37,584 bases of DNA from Pyrinomonadaceae bacterium (GTDB taxonomy: Bacteria; Acidobacteriota; Blastocatellia; Pyrinomonadales; Pyrinomonadaceae): positions 1-37,584 of the forward strand of contig JACCSP010000271.1 of NCBI GenBank assembly GCA_013812905.1, in the 5' to 3' direction. A program made the translations under genes and the position numbers. This document shows, one piece after another, positions 16,050-36,671 of this stretch; position 1 is the stretch's first letter, and every line of letters begins with the position of its first letter. The notes under the pieces are model-generated. The model made no database searches, was not told the origin of the DNA, and saw only the letters and a program-made list of their open reading frames with translations.

Positions 16050-19000
16050 TCACGGTTTGGCGATTACGAGTGGATTAGCTTCCAGTTCTCTCCGGTAGAA
16101 GACGCGCGGGCGTTGGAGCGAACGTTTCTGCGGGTCTGCAATATTCTGCTCTCCCTCAGTAAAGGCAATCGCCAACCCCACGCCTCGCGTCTCTTTCATC
16201 TTTTCTTCCTGCATCTGTGGCACGCGCTCAGTGGCGAAGTCGAGCCACTCTCTCGCGCTCAGCAGTCCGTCCTTCGGTTCAATGTCTGCGATCGGCGTCT
16301 TAAGGCCTTCCTCAACCAATGCGTAGGTGAGGAGTCCGTGACCGAGTTGCGCAGCTTCGAGAGCAGCTTGATAGCTTTGCGCCGCGGTTAGGATGTACAT
16401 GCCCTTTTCGTAGGCCAGCTGGGCCAAACCTTTGGAGTTCATTGGCCCACGGCGTTTCTCTTCGGCCTCGAGCGCCTGCCCAGAGTTGCACGCATCGATG
16501 ACCATTAACAAGTGACCGGCGTCCAAGCCCTCGACCGCTTCCTCCAACTCGATGTCGGAGATGCTGTGCGAGAGTATGCTCTCGAGCCCCTGCTCATTAA
16601 CCTTGGTCCTATCGCCGGTGTAGCTCAAGTCATACGGGATCAGGTAGAAGCGTTGCGCCTGCGCCGTTCCGTGACCAGCAAAGTAGATGATTACGGTATC
16701 TTCCGGCTCCGCTCGTTTGACTCGATCCAGAAAGCCTGCCTTCAAGCTGGGAGGTTCGGCTGCGCCGGCTAATCGCTTCAGCGCCAGCAATATGTTCGCT
16801 TTAGTAGCGTTCTCGTTCAGCAGGGGAACCACTTCTACACGCTCAAACCGCCCAACCTTGGTTTGCCGGGCGCGCACTTCATCACCGAAGCTCTGCGCGT
16901 CAGCCACGGCATACTTCAAGTTGTACTGCGGGTTGGCGTATTCATTCAAGCCCACCGCGATAACATAAGCCGTGCCGGGGCGCTTCAGACTCTCAGCGCC
17001 CACGAGCAGCAACTGAGCGTCTTTGCTCTTGACGTTATCTCTATTGAAAGCGTAAGCCGTCAGCCCGTTCAGTCCCGCAGCGACGGTTAGTTCTTCCTCA
17101 AGCGTGACGGCGGGTTGCCCCTTCAAAATATCGCCGCGCCACACTTTCACTAATGAACCATTTCGAAACAGGCGTAGGTCACGCGCCCCCGTGCCCTGCG
17201 GATGATCTTTGTCCGAAGGTGCGTCGGTAACTTCGAGCCTTACTTTTACACGACGTAACTCTGTGCCCGTAGCTGGTGCTGGCTCGCCGGCCAGTGACAA
17301 CCTAACAACTGGCTGGCGGCGGTCCTTGCGGGAAACATCCTGCGCCGCGCGCGGTCGCTTTCCAGCGAGAATCTCGCTGAGCAGTCCAGGATAATAGAAC
17401 TCGTTAAAGAACCATTCGATGGGGGCGACGTTGAAAGTGTCCTGGTTGTAGCGCCAGAGGATCTGGCTCCACGAAACGGGCGTGCCATCGAACAGACCCT
17501 GGGGGGTGACTACCATCCACTCGCCGCCGTCGTCGAGCGAGATCAGCGTCGCCAGGTGTTCGCCGGTGGTTGTATCCCACACGAAGGTGCCTCCGTCATC
17601 GGCTGCCGATGCGAGCAAACGGGAATCTGGACTAAAGTCTAGCGACTCGATGTTCGATGTGTGGCCCGTTAGAGTTCGCGTCTCACGCTTGGTCGCAAGG
17701 TCCCAAATCCGTATTGTGTTGTCGGTACTACCGGAAGCGAGTAACCGGCCGTCCCGACTAAAAGCAACTTCGGTAACGCCTTTGCCATGGCCTTTGAGAT
17801 CTCCCACCTGGCTTCCGCTGGCCACATCCCAGAGCCTTACCTGGCCGGTCGTCTCAACTTTCAAACTCTTCATGAAATCCTGAGGATCGGGAGTTGGCTG
17901 CTTTTTGGCTTTTTTCCCCTGGTTCATGGCGCCGCTCATCATTGTGGCCATATCGAAATTCGACTTCGTCTCGACGCCGCCCGTCGCCAGGGTCCGGCCG
18001 TCGGGACTAAATGCGACCGAAGTAACGGTCTGACCCATGGTACCGGCTGACATCGCGCCCATCATGTTTGTCATCATGGCACTCATATCCGTCATGTTGG
18101 GCATTGCTATTGACCCGGATTTTGTCGAGCCGGGATTCATGATCGCTCCGGGGTTGATCGAACTGGGCATTGAGCCGGTATTACCAAGCGATCCGAGGTT
18201 CCCCAAAGGTGAGGAAGTCAAATCGCGTATCCGGCTGCCTGATTCAGTGTCCCAGAGCGAGATTTGGCCCATCATGCCGAGTGTCGCCAGCGTGCGCCCA
18301 TCGGAGCTGAAACCAGCCTTGGATGCTCCCAGGCCAAGCGTTATCGACCGCAGCTCACGTCCTGACTTTACTTCCCAGATCTTCAACTGGTTCTCAAGGT
18401 TCACCATACCGCTGTTCGAGGGCTTCTGCTGTTGCTGCTGATCTGGGCCATACATCGTGAGCAGCAGTGTCCCATCAGGACTGAAATTGGCGCGATTAAC
18501 AACGCCCCCACCAGACGCCGGCACTAGACGCTGCAATTGCCGCCCGCCTGGTATTTCCAGAATCGTGAGTACATTACTGTTCATTGTGAATGTGGCAAGC
18601 AATTTTCCATCGGGGCTAGGCAGACCGAATACGCCTTCAGAAGGCGCAGCCGTAAGGCGCGAGCCGCGGCCCGCCCGGAGATCCCAGCGCGTGCGCCCAC
18701 CAGAAGAGAGCCGAGTGCCGTCGGCGCTGAAGGCGACCTCGTACGCCATGTTAGTGCGTCCGCTCATCTTGACGAGTTGTTTTAAGGTTTCGGTTTCCCA
18801 GAGGATCGTTGGTGTTCCGAACCCTCCGGTGGCAAGCTTCTTCCCGTCCTCACTGAAATTCGCGAAGAACCCCCCCGAGGAGGCCGGCAAGCCGGAGTTG
18901 GGCGCTTTCAATGGCGGCAATTCTCGCATGGCAGCAACGTCCCACAGTTTGACCGTGTAGCCTTCTGCGAGTGCAAGCAGGCGACCGTCGCCGCTGAACT

Positions 19001-19973
19001 TTATGTGACCGTAATCGGTCGCGGTCGGAGTAAGTTCCCGCTCATCTCCTTTTCCACTCAGGTCCCAGAGTCTTAAGCGCTTGTCGATGATCCCGGCGAC
19101 CAGCAAACGCCCGTCCGACGTAAACGTCAGCTCGATACTATCGATCTCTTTGTCCGGCAAATCCAACGCGCGAGTTTCGCGTCCAGTTGCGAGGTCCCAA
19201 AACTTAACTTGTGGTCTCGATCCATGGGAAACAACCAAGGCCAGTTGGCCTCCGTCCGGAGCAATTGCCGCGCCGCCTCCAACACCCATGAAAGCCGAGG
19301 TGCTCAAGTTTGTCTCCATGCTAATCGAACGCAGCGCTTGCCCGGAAGCGACGTCCCAAACCCTGATCGCGTCGCTGATTGTCACCACGCGACCGTCCGG
19401 CGTAAATGCGATGAAGGAGACGCCCGCGATCGCGGAGGTCATAGACCCCTGAGTGCCGGCGAGCGTTTGCAGTTCTCGTCCCGAAGTTACATCCCAGATT
19501 TTTACTGAGTTGTCCCCCGCGGCGGCCGCTACTAACCGGCTGTCCCGGCTGAAGGCGATGAAAGGGGACATCCCCATCGAGCTGTGAGTGCCACTTGACA
19601 AGTTGCGTAACTCGCGTCCGCTCGTCGTCTCCCATAGTTTGACCGTGCTGCTGCGAAACGTCGCAGTTGCCAAAAGCCGACCGTCGGGACTAAAAACAAA
19701 TCTCGTCGCCCCGAAAAGATTGTTGTAGCCGGTCTGTAATACCAGTTCTGGCTTGGCCTCTCTGGCACCTTGGTCGGATTGCGAAGTATTAGTGACGCTG
19801 GAAGTCTGGACGCCGATGCCTCGTTTGTCCGGGGCGCCGGGGGGCGGCGTGGCAGATGGTGCTTGTGCGAATGCGCGGCTTGAAACGGTTGCAGCAATAA
19901 GGATTACCAAAACAAAACGTGGCGCAGTCACGACGGCCAAGGCGTTGCGCTCACTCTCAACGGTTTTTCCCAT
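16050..19973 (-). CDS. Exported WD40-repeat protein with C-terminal caspase domain
   Basis: A 1307-aa protein. A signal peptide (hydrophobic 18-34, AFAQ-A cleavage) sends it out of the cytoplasm. Residues about 75-805 hold some 14 WD40 blades, each with a FSPDGR-type turn and a W(D/E) ending (KLWETTS, KIWDVTS, RIWDLAT and others), enough for two seven-bladed propellers. A methionine- and glycine-rich insertion spans about 585-705, and there is a five-Gln run at 512-516. After a linker, residues about 1000-1290 are a peptidase C14 (caspase/metacaspase-like) domain. Its dyad is His1101 in YFAGHG and Cys1162 in VIDACNSG. The ATG at 19973 follows GGGAGGGG. Probably a protease gated by the propellers; substrate unknown. 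Confidence 0.93.
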   Translation of the reverse strand: MGKTVESERNALAVVTAPRFVLVILIAATVSSRAFAQAPSATPPPGAPDKRGIGVQTSSVTNTSQSDQGAREAKPELVLQTGYNNLFGATRFVFSPDGRLLATATFRSSTVKLWETTSGRELRNLSSGTHSSMGMSPFIAFSRDSRLVAAAAGDNSVKIWDVTSGRELQTLAGTQGSMTSAIAGVSFIAFTPDGRVVTISDAIRVWDVASGQALRSISMETNLSTSAFMGVGGGAAIAPDGGQLALVVSHGSRPQVKFWDLATGRETRALDLPDKEIDSIELTFTSDGRLLVAGIIDKRLRLWDLSGKGDERELTPTATDYGHIKFSGDGRLLALAEGYTVKLWDVAAMRELPPLKAPNSGLPASSGGFFANFSEDGKKLATGGFGTPTILWETETLKQLVKMSGRTNMAYEVAFSADGTRLSSGGRTRWDLRAGRGSRLTAAPSEGVFGLPSPDGKLLATFTMNSNVLTILEIPGGRQLQRLVPASGGGVVNRANFSPDGTLLLTMYGPDQQQQQKPSNSGMVNLENQLKIWEVKSGRELRSITLGLGASKAGFSSDGRTLATLGMMGQISLWDTESGSRIRDLTSSPLGNLGSLGNTGSMPSSINPGAIMNPGSTKSGSIAMPNMTDMSAMMTNMMGAMSAGTMGQTVTSVAFSPDGRTLATGGVETKSNFDMATMMSGAMNQGKKAKKQPTPDPQDFMKSLKVETTGQVRLWDVASGSQVGDLKGHGKGVTEVAFSRDGRLLASGSTDNTIRIWDLATKRETRTLTGHTSNIESLDFSPDSRLLASAADDGGTFVWDTTTGEHLATLISLDDGGEWMVVTPQGLFDGTPVSWSQILWRYNQDTFNVAPIEWFFNEFYYPGLLSEILAGKRPRAAQDVSRKDRRQPVVRLSLAGEPAPATGTELRRVKVRLEVTDAPSDKDHPQGTGARDLRLFRNGSLVKVWRGDILKGQPAVTLEEELTVAAGLNGLTAYAFNRDNVKSKDAQLLLVGAESLKRPGTAYVIAVGLNEYANPQYNLKYAVADAQSFGDEVRARQTKVGRFERVEVVPLLNENATKANILLALKRLAGAAEPPSLKAGFLDRVKRAEPEDTVIIYFAGHGTAQAQRFYLIPYDLSYTGDRTKVNEQGLESILSHSISDIELEEAVEGLDAGHLLMVIDACNSGQALEAEEKRRGPMNSKGLAQLAYEKGMYILTAAQSYQAALEAAQLGHGLLTYALVEEGLKTPIADIEPKDGLLSAREWLDFATERVPQMQEEKMKETRGVGLAIAFTEGEQNIADPQKRSLQRPRVFYRRELEANPLVIAKP

Positions 19974-21237: not shown

Positions 21238-21390
21238 AGGCTGTGTTGAAAACTAAGCGATCCGCACGAGGGCTCAAGCTCTGCTAATTTGCAGGTCGCG
21301 AAGGTCGACCTGTCCCCGCTTCAAGTCTCTCTCGATCCGTGCGGCTCGCGCGCCTTCATCGACAACCTTCCGGGCATTGAGTGCTATTAT
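21238..21390 (-). mobile_element. Possible IS-end fragment with transposase C-terminal frame
   Basis: On the plus strand GGCTGTGTTGAAAAC (21239-21253) resembles the outer end of some IS5/IS1182-type elements. About 20 nt further in, the minus strand carries the end of an open frame, with ALNARKVVDEGARAARIERD and KRGQVDLRDLQ, stopping at 21274. It reads like the C-terminus of a truncated transposase. The layout (stop codon about 35 nt from the end) fits an insertion-sequence terminus. The rest of the element is absent. The family is not certain; the call is from pattern only. Confidence 0.35.
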
Positions 21391-21859
21391 CGCCGGCACG
21401 CCGCTCAACCGTCTGCTGCACACATCACAGCTGAGCGTGACCTCTGATGCTGGCACAGTGGAACAGTTCGTGGATAGAAACAACGACTTAATGGCAGACG
21501 AGCGCACTACCTTCGAATCCGCAGGGGGCGCGTTCGATGTCGCCGTGGGCCAGTCAGGCGCTCGCTACGAAGTCTACGGAGCTACGCTCAACAACACTTC
21601 TGTGGGGGTGGTGATCGTCGCATTAGACACTAATGGCGACTACCGCATCGATACTTCTAATAGCTCAACAAAGCATTCTGTGCTCATGCAGTACTTCGGT
21701 TACCTGCGTCGCAATCCAAACGATTTGCCCGACTCAAATTTCAATGGCTACGACTTTTGGCTGGTGAAACTTAATCAATTCAATGGGAATTTCGTCGAGG
21801 CCGAGACGGTCAAAGCTTTCCTCACCTCAGGAGAGTACAAACGGAGGTTTGGTCCGTGA
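21377..21859 (+). pseudogene. Relic of a large surface protein with DUF4214-like tail
   Basis: A 160-codon frame (TTG at 21377) that joins two pieces. The first contains TVEQFVDRNNDLMADERTTF, GGAFDVAVGQSGARYEVYGA and VALDTNGDYRIDTSN. It resembles an N-terminal region of large acidobacterial exported proteins. The second, YFGYLRRNPNDLPDSNFNGY and KAFLTSGEYKRRFGP, resembles the C-terminal DUF4214-type ending of such proteins. The middle (usually several hundred residues) is missing, and no signal peptide is present because the 5' side abuts the putative IS fragment. It is most likely a decayed gene, though a short expressed product cannot be excluded. Confidence 0.55.
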
Positions 21860-22316
21860 TGGGGGCCGGCGGACATCATCCGCAGTTGGCGAGCAAATTC
21901 CGAAAGCCCGGGTAGCGCGACGGCAGCGTAAAGTTTGGAGCGAAGCAGAGGAACCCCCAGGCACGAACCCAACAAGAGATAGAGTCGCTTGATTAGTGGT
22001 CCCTTTAGTCTGTACTGAATAAAACTCAAACCCACCGACTAAAGTCTCTGCTACTAGATTATCAATGGACCATATCGCTGCGATGCGCAACTTGCATCAG
22101 TTTCTTGGGCCAGTTGACCAAAACGTAGGGCATATAGCTGCGCGCAAGTGGTCGCAGCAATGAGGCCGTGGAGCGTGCGCAATCGAAGATAAAGCAATGG
22201 CCGTCCCCTCGACATACTAACGGAGCGACAATTGTCGAAAAGCTTACGTTTATTCAAGCGTTGATCTTGGAAATGGGTTAAAAAAGCAGTCTTCCGATTT
22301 GAACTTAGCTGGAAAC
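21860..22316. other. Gene-free stretch before the polysaccharide locus
   Basis: About 450 bp with no recognisable gene. It contains one clear inverted repeat, CTTTAGTC (22003-22010) and GACTAAAG (22037-22044), 8 bp perfect with a 26-nt loop. GACTAAAGTC-type words are, from memory, common in dispersed palindromes of acidobacterial genomes. The promoter of the downstream O-antigen ligase gene should lie here, but no convincing -35/-10 pair was found. Confidence 0.45.
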
Positions 22317-23882
22317 ATGAACATATCCAGAAGCGCCGCCGGTGACAACAAGGAAAATAGCGAGGCTGCCCAATGGATTGATAGGGCCATCATTGTTTGC
22401 CTGTTCATGTTCGCCGCCGCTGCCCCTCATTCGATTGCCGCTACTCAGACTGCGTGGCTGATAGGCATGCTGCTTTGGGTATCTCGATTTGCCTTCTATC
22501 CTGTTTCCGTCTTACATAAGTCACCGCTTGATTACGCATTGCTCGGCTTCTTTATCCTCACTGGACTTTCCGCATTTCTCTCTTACGAGCCGATGGTTTC
22601 AATCGGAAAACTTCGGGCCGCAAGCCTCTTCACTATCGTCTATCTGTTTGCTCAGAATATCCCGTCTCGTCGTGTTCTTCGCCTGCTGGCGCTAACCCTG
22701 GTCGCTTCTTGCACGATCAATGTGCTCTACACTGCCGGGCAGCGACTAGTCGGCAGAGGTGTAAAGATCCAGAGCTTGACAGTTGAAAGCCCTCTTTACG
22801 CGTCGGGTGTGAGAGCCGGTGATACATTGCTGGAAATTAACGGTACGAGAGTTAACGATCCCGAGGACTTGATCAATGTGCTTGACATTCCTGACAAGAA
22901 GCCAGCCACGGTCAAAGCCTACCGGCACGAGCTGTTGCCGACGTTTAAGGTGCAGCGAGGGAAACTCTTGGCCGGCAGTGACGCCCCCCAAAGACTAGGC
23001 GTCGAGGGTTGGTCCAAAGGTCGCGACTGGCGCGCGCCAGGCTTCTATGGTCATTACGTCTCCTATGCAGAAGTCTTGCAGTTGATCCTGGCTCTGACCG
23101 TCGGGTTGTTTGTTGCGTTGCCTTCAAAGCGCAGCTGGGTTGGTTCCCTGCTGAGCATTGCGTTCGTGGGCTTCTGTTTCTCATTAATGTTGACAGTAAC
23201 GCGCGCTTCCTGGGCAGCGTTCCTGATCTCTTCCACCGTCATATTGCTTCTGGGATCAAGCCGGCGGGCGATTTTAATCGTAGGACTGCTGGCAATTCCA
23301 CTGGTTCTAGCTGGTCTCTTCTTTCTTCAGCAGAAACGCAACGTCTCATTCTTCGATCAAACGGATCAGTCGACTACTTGGAGGCAGACCGTTTGGCGAG
23401 AAGGTTTTGACCTACTCGTAAGTAGACCACGCCATCTGATTTTTGGCATTGGGATGGATTCGATTAAGGGACACTGGCGCGAGTGGGGCATGTTTGACAA
23501 CGGCCGCTTGCCCCGGGGCCACATGCACTCAAACTTGTTGCAGCTTGCTCTCGAGCGCGGCGTTCTGGCGTTGGTTCTTTGGCTGGTCCTACTCGGGCTG
23601 TATGCAGTCATGCTGCTAAGGCTTGCGCGCGACCTAAGAGAATCGAACGACGGTGGAGGAAATGAACAACGTTTTGGGCCTTGGATCGATCGAGGGATCG
23701 TATTTGGTGCATTGGGAGGAATGATTGGTTTCTTTGCAAGCGGCCTGGTCCACTACAACTGGGGCGACTCAGAAGTTGTAATGGTGTTTTATTTCAACAT
23801 GGGATTAATTCTGGCTCTGAAGCGATTGAGTGATGCCCGGGAAACACGAAAAACCACCAGTCTGTTGAGGATCGAAATTTAG
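22317..23882 (+). CDS. O-antigen ligase/polymerase family protein with PDZ-like insert
   Basis: A 521-aa polytopic membrane protein of the Wzy/WaaL (O-antigen ligase) family, which joins or polymerises surface polysaccharide on the periplasmic side. About 10 or more hydrophobic helices flank two soluble regions. The long C-terminal loop has GHMHSNLLQLALERG, the family His motif (His404), and TRASW holds a candidate Arg (296). Unusually, the loop after the fourth or fifth helix (about 149-214) reads as a PDZ domain: SPLYASGVRAGDTLLEING followed by TRVNDPEDLINVL. The ATG at 22317 is preferred over an upstream TTG at 22299 because GGAAAC precedes it. It is the first gene of the polysaccharide locus and converges with the GT4 gene. 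Confidence 0.88.
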   Translation: MNISRSAAGDNKENSEAAQWIDRAIIVCLFMFAAAAPHSIAATQTAWLIGMLLWVSRFAFYPVSVLHKSPLDYALLGFFILTGLSAFLSYEPMVSIGKLRAASLFTIVYLFAQNIPSRRVLRLLALTLVASCTINVLYTAGQRLVGRGVKIQSLTVESPLYASGVRAGDTLLEINGTRVNDPEDLINVLDIPDKKPATVKAYRHELLPTFKVQRGKLLAGSDAPQRLGVEGWSKGRDWRAPGFYGHYVSYAEVLQLILALTVGLFVALPSKRSWVGSLLSIAFVGFCFSLMLTVTRASWAAFLISSTVILLLGSSRRAILIVGLLAIPLVLAGLFFLQQKRNVSFFDQTDQSTTWRQTVWREGFDLLVSRPRHLIFGIGMDSIKGHWREWGMFDNGRLPRGHMHSNLLQLALERGVLALVLWLVLLGLYAVMLLRLARDLRESNDGGGNEQRFGPWIDRGIVFGALGGMIGFFASGLVHYNWGDSEVVMVFYFNMGLILALKRLSDARETRKTTSLLRIEI

Positions 23883-25261: not shown

Positions 25262-26542
25262 ATGAAACAAACGGTAACTCTTGCCTTTCTGGCCGGCGCC
25301 AATATTCTCGTCATCTTGTTGCTTCAGTGGTACGTGATAACACAACTGGGCGTCGGATCTGAAACCGATGCGCTGTTTGCCGGAATGGTATTGCCGCAGT
25401 TGATCCTCAGTGTTGTGAGCAGCTCGCTAACACATGTGCTTGTTCCTCTACTCACTACGGCAGACAAGGGCACATTCCATGAAAATGGCTGGGGATTCTT
25501 TTTAGCCATCAGTGCCATATTCACGATCCTGGCGCTGGTTTTGAGTGCTGGCGCTGGTTATTGGGTGCCATGGCTGTTCCCCGGATTTACAAAAGCCGAA
25601 GCAGCGCTGGCTGTCACACTGACTAGAATCCAATTAGCCAGCATGGTTTTCACGGCTTCTGTGTCGGTGCTTTGGTCTCTTTACCACGCGCAGCAGAAAT
25701 TCATCTGGACGGAGCTATCAGCCGTGCTCGCAGGGGGTGTTGCTCTCTTTGTAATGACTCTGACACTGCCTCGGTTCGGCGTTGCCGCGGCTGCCTGGGC
25801 AATCGTAGTGCGCACAGCATTGCAAGTGGTTCTCTTGTTGCCCGCCCTGGGTCGACCTAAGCGTCCTAGCTGGCGCGCGCCCGCCATGAAGGCTGCTTGG
25901 AAACGGCTGGCACCATTGTTGCTCGGCGCCTCCTATTATCGAACGGATTTGTTAATTGATAGATTCCTTTCGTCCCTGGCTGGACCAGGTGGCCTTTCGC
26001 TCCTCTACCTCGGCCAACAAATCTACAGTGTGGCAAACTTCGGGCTTGAGAAGGCGATCTCGGCGCCCATGGTACCCTTGCTGGCAAACAAGGCGCACGC
26101 GGGCGAGTGGCTCTCTTTTCGCGAGAGTTTTCGCCGCCGCCTGATTTGGATGGGGTTGCTAACCACCGCGGGCTACGTAGTCGTCCTATTGACGGGAGAA
26201 TGGATCCTGACGTTGCTCATCGGTCACGGCGGCGTGACCAGGGACAACGTTCACTCTTTGTGGCTCATTATGGTAGCGCTGGTGGGACTCCTGATCGGCG
26301 GTGGGATGGGCCAAATCTCAGCCACGACGTTCTACGCAAAGGGAGATACGCGTACGCCGACAAGATTGGGAATCTGGACCTACAGCGTTTGCATTCCGGT
26401 CAAGGTCCTGCTTTTCCTGCGCTACGGCTTGATTGGTCTGGCGGTCTCAACCAGCATTTTTGTGTTGGTGAATCTTGCGCTCCAAGTGGTCGTTCTTGAA
26501 AAGCGACTTTCGTTACAATCCGCAAAAGAGTGCAATGGTTAA
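25262..26542 (+). CDS. MurJ/Wzx-like polysaccharide flippase
   Basis: A 426-aa membrane protein with about 12 hydrophobic helices in the MOP (multidrug/oligosaccharidyl-lipid/polysaccharide) superfamily, closest in feel to MurJ/MviN. Landmarks are SETDALFAGMVLPQ near the first helices, YYRTDLLIDRFLSSLAGPG mid-protein and TTFYAKGDTRTPTRLGIW in the second half. It is shorter than housekeeping MurJ (about 510 aa), and its position among glycosyltransferases suggests it flips a lipid-linked surface glycan instead. The start ATG at 25262 follows a good promoter. Its stop overlaps the next methyltransferase by 8 nt. Confidence 0.87.
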   Translation: MKQTVTLAFLAGANILVILLLQWYVITQLGVGSETDALFAGMVLPQLILSVVSSSLTHVLVPLLTTADKGTFHENGWGFFLAISAIFTILALVLSAGAGYWVPWLFPGFTKAEAALAVTLTRIQLASMVFTASVSVLWSLYHAQQKFIWTELSAVLAGGVALFVMTLTLPRFGVAAAAWAIVVRTALQVVLLLPALGRPKRPSWRAPAMKAAWKRLAPLLLGASYYRTDLLIDRFLSSLAGPGGLSLLYLGQQIYSVANFGLEKAISAPMVPLLANKAHAGEWLSFRESFRRRLIWMGLLTTAGYVVVLLTGEWILTLLIGHGGVTRDNVHSLWLIMVALVGLLIGGGMGQISATTFYAKGDTRTPTRLGIWTYSVCIPVKVLLFLRYGLIGLAVSTSIFVLVNLALQVVVLEKRLSLQSAKECNG

Positions 26543-35019: not shown

Positions 35020-36621
35020 TTATTGGTAAGTGAACTGTAATATTCGCTGCGCTACACGATCGACTTCGCGTCGATAAGTAGAAACGTTCAACACGATGGG
35101 ATCGCCGGGTTTTAGTCCGTTTAAGACGCGCTGAAAATCCGCGAGCGTGGTCACCTGAACCCGATTGATGCGCGTGATTACGTCACCTTCACTCAACGCC
35201 GGCTGGCCGCCCGCCAGTCGCACATCGGCCGCGAGGCCATTAGGATCGACGGTTTTGACGTAGAGACCGCGCACCCCGGTCAGGTGTTTTTCCGCGACTA
35301 GTTGTTGCGTGATTTCCGCGAGGGTAATTCCGAGCTGCGGTCCATTTCCTTTGGCGTCTCCTTTGGTGTCAGACTCTTTCCTTTTTCCGCTGGGCTCCTC
35401 GGTTATCGGTATCACCTGGGGGGGAGGTCTCTCACCTAGCACAACATTCGCTGTGTTTTTTTCCAGTTTGCCATCGACGTCGCGCAGATATGTCAAAGCC
35501 ACGGACTGGCCCACCGGACTGCTCGCAACTTTTTGAATCAAATCTTGAGCGTGAGCAACGGACTGTCCATTAAACTCGACAATGATGTCGTTCGACTGAA
35601 TACCGGCCTTGGCCGCGGGTGTTAACTGCCCATCCTTAGTCTGTGTAACATCCATCACAATCGCGCCTTTGGCCTCTGGTAAACCATAGACCCTGGCAAA
35701 CTCATCTTTGACTGAGTCGAGCGTTATACCCAGAAAGCCGCGACTCACCTTTCCCTGGGACACCAACTGGCGATAGACGAAGTTGGCTTCGTTAGCCGGA
35801 AGCGCAAACCCAATACCGTTATAGTCGCCAGTGGAAGTGGCAATCTGCGAATTCACTCCAATCACTTCACCTCGCATATTCACCAACGGTCCACCGCTGT
35901 TGCCGCGATTGATCGCCGCATCGGTTTGCAGGAAACGCTGGAAACTTGTGAAGTAGGGAGTTTCTCTCTCTTTCTTGGAGATAATGCCGGCCGTGACGGT
36001 CTGGTCCAGTCCGAAGGGAGAACCCATTGCCAGCACCCAGTCGCCCACCTCTGCCGAATTGGAATCGCCCAAGGTGACGGTAGGCAAGTCCTGCGAAGCC
36101 TCGATCTTGATTACCGCAACATCCGTCTCTTCATCGATGCCCACAATCTTGCCGCGATATTTTTCGCCGGATTGAAGTCCGACAGTAATTCTAGTCGCTC
36201 CTTCAATGACATGTTCATTGGTAAGAATGTAGCCTTTCGGGCTGACGATAAATCCGCTTCCCACACCGCGAGAGGGGCGGCGCGCCTGACGCCGAAACAT
36301 GTCAAGTAAGGGGTTCGACGCCTGAGGGTCTATTTCAGCATCGTCTTTAGCAGCCGTCTCAGGAGCGGCGGTCATGGTTTCAATATTTACCACTGCGGGC
36401 TCGACTCGTCGGGCAATCTCGGCAAACGAGGCGGACAAGGCTTCCGGCGCGCGGGCAATCTGCGCTTCGTTTTGCGCTACGGTTGGTTGGCCAGAAAGCA
36501 TCGCGCCAATGCCAATACCGGCGACAAGACATGCTACTGCGAGAGCGGCAATCCAGAGCCGCAGCTTTCGCAAAATGGCCCACTCTTGAACTGTTGTTTG
36601 GTCTTGGGGACGCTCGAACAT
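35020..36621 (-). CDS. htrA: HtrA/Deg family serine protease with two PDZ domains
   Basis: A 533-aa envelope protease/chaperone. An N-terminal anchor helix (22-43) is followed by a trypsin-like domain with catalytic His137 (TNEHVIEG), Asp167 (EETDVAVIK) and Ser242 (RGNSGGPL). PDZ1 follows (RGFLGITLD through AAKAGIQSNDIIVEFNG). A charged, Gly/Lys-rich linker leads to PDZ2 (LGITLAEITQQL through LSEGDVITRINRVQV). It degrades or refolds damaged periplasmic proteins. The ATG at 36621 with AAGGCGGTGGG upstream is preferred; the ATG at 36654 lies inside a terminator-like hairpin. It is an isolated gene or the first of htrA-ALDH-ald. Confidence 0.94.
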   Translation of the reverse strand: MFERPQDQTTVQEWAILRKLRLWIAALAVACLVAGIGIGAMLSGQPTVAQNEAQIARAPEALSASFAEIARRVEPAVVNIETMTAAPETAAKDDAEIDPQASNPLLDMFRRQARRPSRGVGSGFIVSPKGYILTNEHVIEGATRITVGLQSGEKYRGKIVGIDEETDVAVIKIEASQDLPTVTLGDSNSAEVGDWVLAMGSPFGLDQTVTAGIISKKERETPYFTSFQRFLQTDAAINRGNSGGPLVNMRGEVIGVNSQIATSTGDYNGIGFALPANEANFVYRQLVSQGKVSRGFLGITLDSVKDEFARVYGLPEAKGAIVMDVTQTKDGQLTPAAKAGIQSNDIIVEFNGQSVAHAQDLIQKVASSPVGQSVALTYLRDVDGKLEKNTANVVLGERPPPQVIPITEEPSGKRKESDTKGDAKGNGPQLGITLAEITQQLVAEKHLTGVRGLYVKTVDPNGLAADVRLAGGQPALSEGDVITRINRVQVTTLADFQRVLNGLKPGDPIVLNVSTYRREVDRVAQRILQFTYQ

Positions 36622-36641
36622 AACCCACCGCCTTTTTGGGG

Positions 36642-36671
36642 AAAAAACCGACATCGGGCGCCCGATAGCGG
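36642..36671 (-). terminator. Terminator- or attenuator-like hairpin upstream of htrA
   Basis: On the minus strand the palindrome ATCGGGCGCCCGAT (36666-36653) is the centre of a CCGCT...GTCGG stem with one mismatch. It is followed at once by six T residues (36647-36642). This is the form of an intrinsic terminator. It lies downstream of the MDR gene and about 20-50 nt before the htrA start, so it may end MDR transcription or attenuate htrA. Confidence 0.5.

Follow-up and report, generated by a model that had tools for sequence, protein, structure and literature searches.

The stretch of Pyrinomonadaceae DNA that we analyzed (37,584 nucleotides of contig JACCSP010000271.1, here called the window) contains at positions 22299..23882 a gene for a WaaL/Wzy_C-family glycan ligase/polymerase that bears a PDZ domain. 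Coordinates below are on the forward (+) strand unless marked otherwise. The product is 527 amino acids long when translation starts at a TTG codon, and an alternative ATG start lies at 22317 (residue 7). N-terminal transmembrane helices occupy residues ~22-151 (22362..22751) in AlphaFold models and the last of these, residues 124-151, runs into the PDZ domain. Downstream of this, Pfam places the Wzy_C (O-antigen ligase) domain at residues 288-429 (23160..23585), and the match to this family (PF04932) with hmmscan had an E-value of 8.8e-17 and 61.7 bits against a cut-off of 31.7. A full-length AlphaFold model built with 11 homologues is a polytopic helical membrane protein with a mean predicted local distance difference test score (pLDDT) of 71.7, in which the PDZ-like domain sits between helix 124-151 and helix 257-273. 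Ten-residue blocks of the PDZ domain in this model mostly have pLDDT values of 77-91, and residues 243-255 are poorly modelled. The best fold match to the full model was WaaL (7tpg_B; Z 26.2, root-mean-square deviation 4.6, 365 residues aligned, 16% identity), with SEDS glycosyltransferases ranking after it (Z 11-16). Because four transmembrane helices separate the insertion from the Wzy_C catalytic loop in the model, both probably lie on the same, periplasmic, side of the membrane. An initial annotation of this DNA had proposed that the periplasmic loop of this WaaL/Wzy-family protein holds a PDZ-like domain, and Pfam scores of the loop, the AlphaFold fold, and structural matches bear this out. 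These results confirm that the protein is a WaaL-type (GT-C) membrane glycan ligase/polymerase with a genuine PDZ domain in a periplasmic loop.

Three residues expected in the active site of such an enzyme are present. Arg302 (23202..23204) aligned to the Arg of the T-R motif in the solved WaaL structure, and Arg362 (23382..23384) aligned to the Arg of VRLKIW in the same structure; by spacing these correspond to R215 and R288 of Escherichia coli WaaL. His410 (23526..23528), a catalytic-type residue in an HxHS/HxHN motif, corresponds by spacing to H338. A further residue, Arg245 (23031..23033) of the active-site loop, lies two residues past the last strand of the PDZ domain. R215, R288, and H338 are active-site residues of E. 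coli WaaL (PMC3643930), and active-site residues have also been described elsewhere (PMC12800693). All 117 homologues compared, those that lack the PDZ domain included, share Arg245, Arg302, Arg362, and His410. The query used to collect these homologues bore a PDZ domain, so that the counts given here hold for an orthologous subfamily and do not extend to all Wzy_C proteins of the class. A joint profile of homologues with and without the PDZ domain aligned to WaaL 7tpg at an E-value of 5.8e-15. Because the catalytic residues align to those of WaaL and are invariant in the homologues, we expect the enzyme to be active. It resembles WaaL of Cupriavidus metallidurans (7TPG/7TPJ) in its GT-C fold, its Wzy_C domain, its two active-site Arg residues, and its HxH motif, but WaaL has no PDZ domain.

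The evidence for the PDZ domain itself comes from profiles, AlphaFold models, and structural matches, which together place it at residues 152-243 (22752..23027). Pfam PDZ models cover residues 152-206. With the whole protein as query, PDZ_6 scored 26.7 bits (E = 4.8e-6), just below the 27-bit cut-off, and PDZ_2 had an E-value of 2e-5. The loop alone cleared the Pfam cut-off (27) with both models, at 29.9 bits (E = 4.7e-7) for PDZ_6 and 29.1 bits (E = 1.3e-6) for PDZ_2, which is the outcome that the profile search proposed in the initial annotation had been meant to look for. When an 11-homologue profile was compared with sequences of the Protein Data Bank, it matched PDZ domains of site-2 proteases and Deg/HtrA proteases (E from 2e-7 to 1e-3), and the best of these were site-2 protease domains (E = 2e-7). 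The HtrA protein encoded in the window gave a weaker match in the same direction (probability 74%, E = 2.8e-5). Structure prediction, another of the proposed checks, also yielded the PDZ fold: residues 147-250 modelled alone had an AlphaFold pLDDT of 84.7 and a predicted template modelling score of 0.74, and this model matched PDZ structures with a Foldseek E-value of 3.6e-5 and a VIA Z-score of about 10. The PDZ assignment is far beyond chance.

The order of elements in the models is strand 155-160, helix 165-168, strand 176-180, helix 188-195 (alpha2), strand 203-209, strand 215-218, helix 229-233, and a groove strand at about 235-243. Written as a pattern this is strand-helix-strand-(strand)-helix-strand-strand-(helix)-groove strand, with the groove strand last. 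Permutation of this kind, in which the final strand makes the groove, has been described before (PMC3976055; PMC7138185). GRASP55/65 and the N-terminal PDZ domain (PDZ-N) of RseP/MucP aligned end to end with the model (residues 151-246 or 153-240, Z ~9-10). By contrast, alignments to PDZ domains of the HtrA/Deg type stopped at residues 219-227, before the RLGV motif and the groove strand. On these models, the PDZ domain is of the circularly permuted GRASP/RseP type in its predicted strand order and not of the HtrA type.

The closest known PDZ domains differ from this one in their settings. The domain gave full-length matches to the peptide-bound permuted PDZ domains of GRASP55-Golgin45 (5h3j; Z 9.9, 91 aligned) and GRASP65-GM130 (4rey; Z 9.7), and whole-domain alignments to GRASP55 and GRASP65, in which the last strand likewise forms the peptide groove, had Z of about 10 at 19-24% identity. 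However, the GRASP proteins are eukaryotic cytosolic Golgi tethers, whereas here a single PDZ domain lies within a bacterial membrane enzyme. RseP PDZ-N (2zpl) matched with Z 10.0, and RseP/MucP PDZ-N and C-terminal PDZ domain (PDZ-C) matched overall at Z ~8-10 with the same strand order. In RseP/MucP, too, the periplasmic PDZ domains are inserted into a membrane enzyme, between its transmembrane helices, although these enzymes are intramembrane proteases with tandem PDZ domains and the protein studied here is a glycan transferase with one. The bacterial PDZ core of DegP, DegQ, and HtrA is related as well (profile E-values as low as ~1e-6), but these are proteases with a different permutation, and the alignment to them stops at ~residues 219-227, before the C-terminal groove strand.

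Circular permutation also changes where the carboxylate-binding motif is to be sought. The initial annotation had taken SPLYASGVRAGDTLLEING (residues 164-182, 22788..22844) to be the carboxylate-binding core. This segment is part of the structural core of the PDZ domain, namely its first helix and the next strand. Because the domain is circularly permuted, the actual carboxylate-loop motif (X-phi-G-phi) lies ~50-65 residues downstream, as RLGV at residues 232-235 (22992..23003). Within this motif G234 was kept in 81 of 86 homologues, and position 235 was mostly I, V, F, or L. The interval first assigned to the domain, 22749-23000 (residues 151-234), does code for PDZ sequence but is too short, since the domain reaches approximately residue 243 (23027); RLGV stands at its very end and the groove strand just past it. 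Some orthologues (loci L009, L010, L011, L015, L018, and L021-L024) have extra loops of ~10-20 amino acids inside the PDZ domain, which follow either helix alpha2, where they contain Cys and possibly a disulphide, or SPL near the first helix.

A survey of homologues for the insertion gave a sharp division. The stretch from the fifth transmembrane helix (TM5) to Arg245 was 111-138 amino acids long in 86 of 86 Blastocatellia homologues and 27-35 amino acids long in 31 of 31 homologues from other Acidobacteriota, with none intermediate; in the protein of the window it is ~118 amino acids. A PDZ model built from in-class proteins matched 86/86 proteins in the class and 0/31 outside it. Pfam, which is independent of that model, found a PDZ domain in 3 of 10 proteins of a mixed alignment (three in-class and seven other proteins). 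The suggestion that a PDZ domain is unusual for such ligases thus fits the related ligases elsewhere in Acidobacteriota, which are without one. In a tree built without the PDZ sequence, one change sufficed to explain the distribution, on a branch with support 100/99. Among the homologues compared, these sequences show a single origin of the insertion, which lies between TM5 and the loop with the invariant Arg, at the base of Blastocatellia.

Within the class the protein is widespread. Of the Blastocatellia genomes with a completeness of 90% or more and a contamination of 5% or less, 89 of 101 had a relative, as did 39 of 41 genera. Full-length matches, in a comparison with 297 genomes of the phylum, were restricted to Blastocatellia; outside the class, among the matches listed, all started at profile position 199 or later, past the PDZ core. 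A scan of the genomes of 84,980 species, which reaches close relatives only, found Acidobacteriota alone, and the near relatives were Pyrinomonadaceae (Blastocatellia, Acidobacteriota). No match was found in plasmid records by tblastn, and no relative was found in viral contigs. The source genome encodes five Wzy_C proteins, of which two have the PDZ domain (the ligase at 22299-23882 and C312) and three do not. The insertion is common to two paralogues, and the second (L002, L100-L119), which was found in the family that the window comes from, forms its own clade with the motif SGI instead of LGI. Because motif position 2 is mostly Leu but is Ser in this paralogue B, the two paralogues may favor different ligands. 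In the same genome a 708-amino acid Wzy_C protein (L073, 580-2703, - strand) has a weak C-terminal TPR match and is possibly another ligase fused to a protein-interaction module.

Conservation within the PDZ domain was examined in the 86 homologues that have it. G152 was invariant, G154, D175, and G174 were nearly so, S164-P165-L166 was strongly kept, and position 211 was acidic in 86/86. The ratio of nonsynonymous to synonymous substitution rates (dN/dS) for the domain was 0.08-0.34 in 15 close pairs. By these substitution patterns, the PDZ domain is under purifying selection.

What the domain does can be considered from its position. Because it sits beside the catalytic residues on the outer face of the membrane, the architecture suggests that the joining of sugar chains is positioned or switched by another protein. 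In the mechanism that we propose, the WaaL-type enzyme would transfer an undecaprenyl-diphosphate-linked glycan in the periplasm while the PDZ groove would bind a periplasmic partner, either by its C-terminus or through an internal peptide. The last groove strand is predicted to lead directly into Arg245, and binding of the partner would position the enzyme or open the active site for glycan transfer. We consider it slightly better than an even bet that this is a WaaL-type enzyme with a once-inserted permuted PDZ domain whose groove docks a periplasmic partner to place or gate glycan transfer. Docking of a protein C-terminus, as the initial annotation proposed, is still the leading candidate function. 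The further step, in which a C-terminus in the groove would move the strand joined to Arg245 and thereby switch the transfer of surface glycans on or off, tying polysaccharide attachment to the assembly of the envelope or to stress throughout the class, is a more speculative one that we regard as unlikely. Several points weigh against docking. The groove is deduced from fold and motif and not from a bound structure. Motif position 2 in paralogue B is mostly Ser and not hydrophobic (SGI), and the motif Gly is absent in five homologues. The dN/dS of the PDZ domain is also generally a little above that of the remaining protein, which means that the domain changes somewhat faster. Finally, the PDZ tandem of RseP acts largely as a size filter (PMC7728848), and a conserved PDZ domain need not bind peptides.

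This last point leads to the idea that the PDZ domain works sterically, as a filter or structural cap that covers the active site, limits acceptor glycans or proteins, and recognizes no specific peptide, as proposed for RseP. It is tethered at both ends and lies near Arg245, and its inner loops differ in size among homologues, all of which a cap would accommodate. However, the X-phi-G-phi motif and the groove strand are conserved across the class, which is beyond the needs of a pure cap, and we view this explanation as possible though rather unlikely. Another rival is a degenerate PDZ relic that merely links two transmembrane helices. Weak PDZ scores in paralogue B and in some deep members are in line with this, but retention of the domain in 86/86 members of a class-wide family, a dN/dS of 0.08-0.34, and the invariant or strongly kept G152, G154, S164-P165-L166, G174-D175, acidic 211, and G234 argue against it. 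The relic is already disfavored and we hold it to be very improbable.

Alternatively, the enzyme might be a protein O-glycosylation ligase in which the PDZ domain catches the C-termini of acceptor proteins, to which the enzyme adds the glycan. The Wzy_C family takes in the protein ligases PglL and PglS, PDZ domains bind protein C-termini, and the genome also encodes an exosortase. PglL/PglS and the TIGR03097 ligases share the Wzy_C fold and the catalytic residues with this enzyme, but their family-specific domains and models are unmatched here. Only Wzy_C and PDZ models matched in Pfam, with no hit to PglL-type domains, and none of the NCBIfam O-glycosylation ligase models, including the exosortase-associated TIGR03097, matched the PDZ ligase; the genome's best TIGR03097 match was to another Wzy_C protein, C343, at 134.5 bits against a cut-off of 188.1. 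We know of no PDZ domain in PglL/PglS or TIGR03097 ligases. Because lpxC and waaA are present in the genome, lipid A is a possible acceptor of the glycan, which also speaks against a protein acceptor. These two genes would allow the enzyme to be a ligase that puts O-antigen on lipid A-core, as opposed to a Wzy polymerase. Protein O-glycosylation therefore seems improbable to us, and partner docking by the groove is the reading that we prefer.

Of the microbial PDZ proteins in a published survey, 93% fell into 12 families, and 88% of those classified had PDZ-protease combinations (PMC6411480). Proteases are the main setting in which PDZ domains of bacteria are known, and the text of that survey does not contain the terms O-antigen, Wzy, glycosyl, or polysaccharide. 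We found no description of a PDZ domain joined to an O-antigen ligase, WaaL, or Wzy in the searchable literature, including PMC6411480. Neither the PDZ type nor the enzyme type is new in itself, and it is their union that is undescribed there. Here a PDZ domain is built into a glycan-transfer enzyme beside its catalytic residues and is kept across Blastocatellia, a class of soil bacteria. Should it bind peptides, it would reveal how a protein partner can recruit or gate a WaaL/Wzy-type enzyme, and as a small soluble domain it could be used to fish out that partner.

The surroundings of the gene were also considered. On its 3' side the window encodes glycosyltransferases, a MurJ-superfamily flippase, methyltransferases, and an asparagine-synthase-like amidotransferase. 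The flippase gene (25262..26542) matched Pfam MurJ at an E-value of 3e-36 and NCBIfam murJ at 129 bits, below the cut-off of 235.6, and is a candidate flippase for the same glycan. The amidotransferase resembles the enzyme of the XrtA system but scores under its cut-off. In five related loci (L004, L005, L006, L008, and L009) the ligase gene lies directly or one gene downstream of a gene for a ~520-amino acid protein. Pfam identifies the L006 copy of this protein as a priming sugar transferase, and the other four were assigned by similar length and start. A DUF354 gene also lies just upstream of the ligase in five related loci. Because the ligase adjoins a priming sugar transferase in related loci, the gene context fits an undecaprenyl-diphosphate-linked glycan. 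Elsewhere in the genome, on other contigs, we found lpxC, waaA, a Wzz protein, two priming transferases, and the exosortase.

A link to an envelope protease of the HtrA type, raised in the initial annotation, is unsupported. The window does encode an HtrA/DegP-type protease with its own PDZ domains (35020-36654, - strand; TIGR02037 at 412 bits against a cut-off of 416), but this gene is 11 kb away on the opposite strand and the PDZ domain of the ligase has the GRASP/RseP-type order. When 15 genes of the window were compared with ten related loci by tblastn, only the ligase and the AsnB-like gene were found near each other, and most loci extend at most 8 kb per side, so that distant linkage is beyond the reach of this comparison. 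Between a TPR protein and the ligase lies a 160-amino acid open reading frame (21377-21859) with no convincing family match in Pfam or NCBIfam. Further upstream, 16050-19973 on the - strand encodes a 1307-amino acid protein with many WD40 repeats, which profiles confirm; its C-terminal part reads as caspase/metacaspase-like (HGTA...DACNSG), with profile support for the WD40 part only. In one Pyrinomonadaceae genome, a protein with a RelA/SpoT-type synthetase domain is encoded directly upstream of the ligase (L004, 6926-7696).
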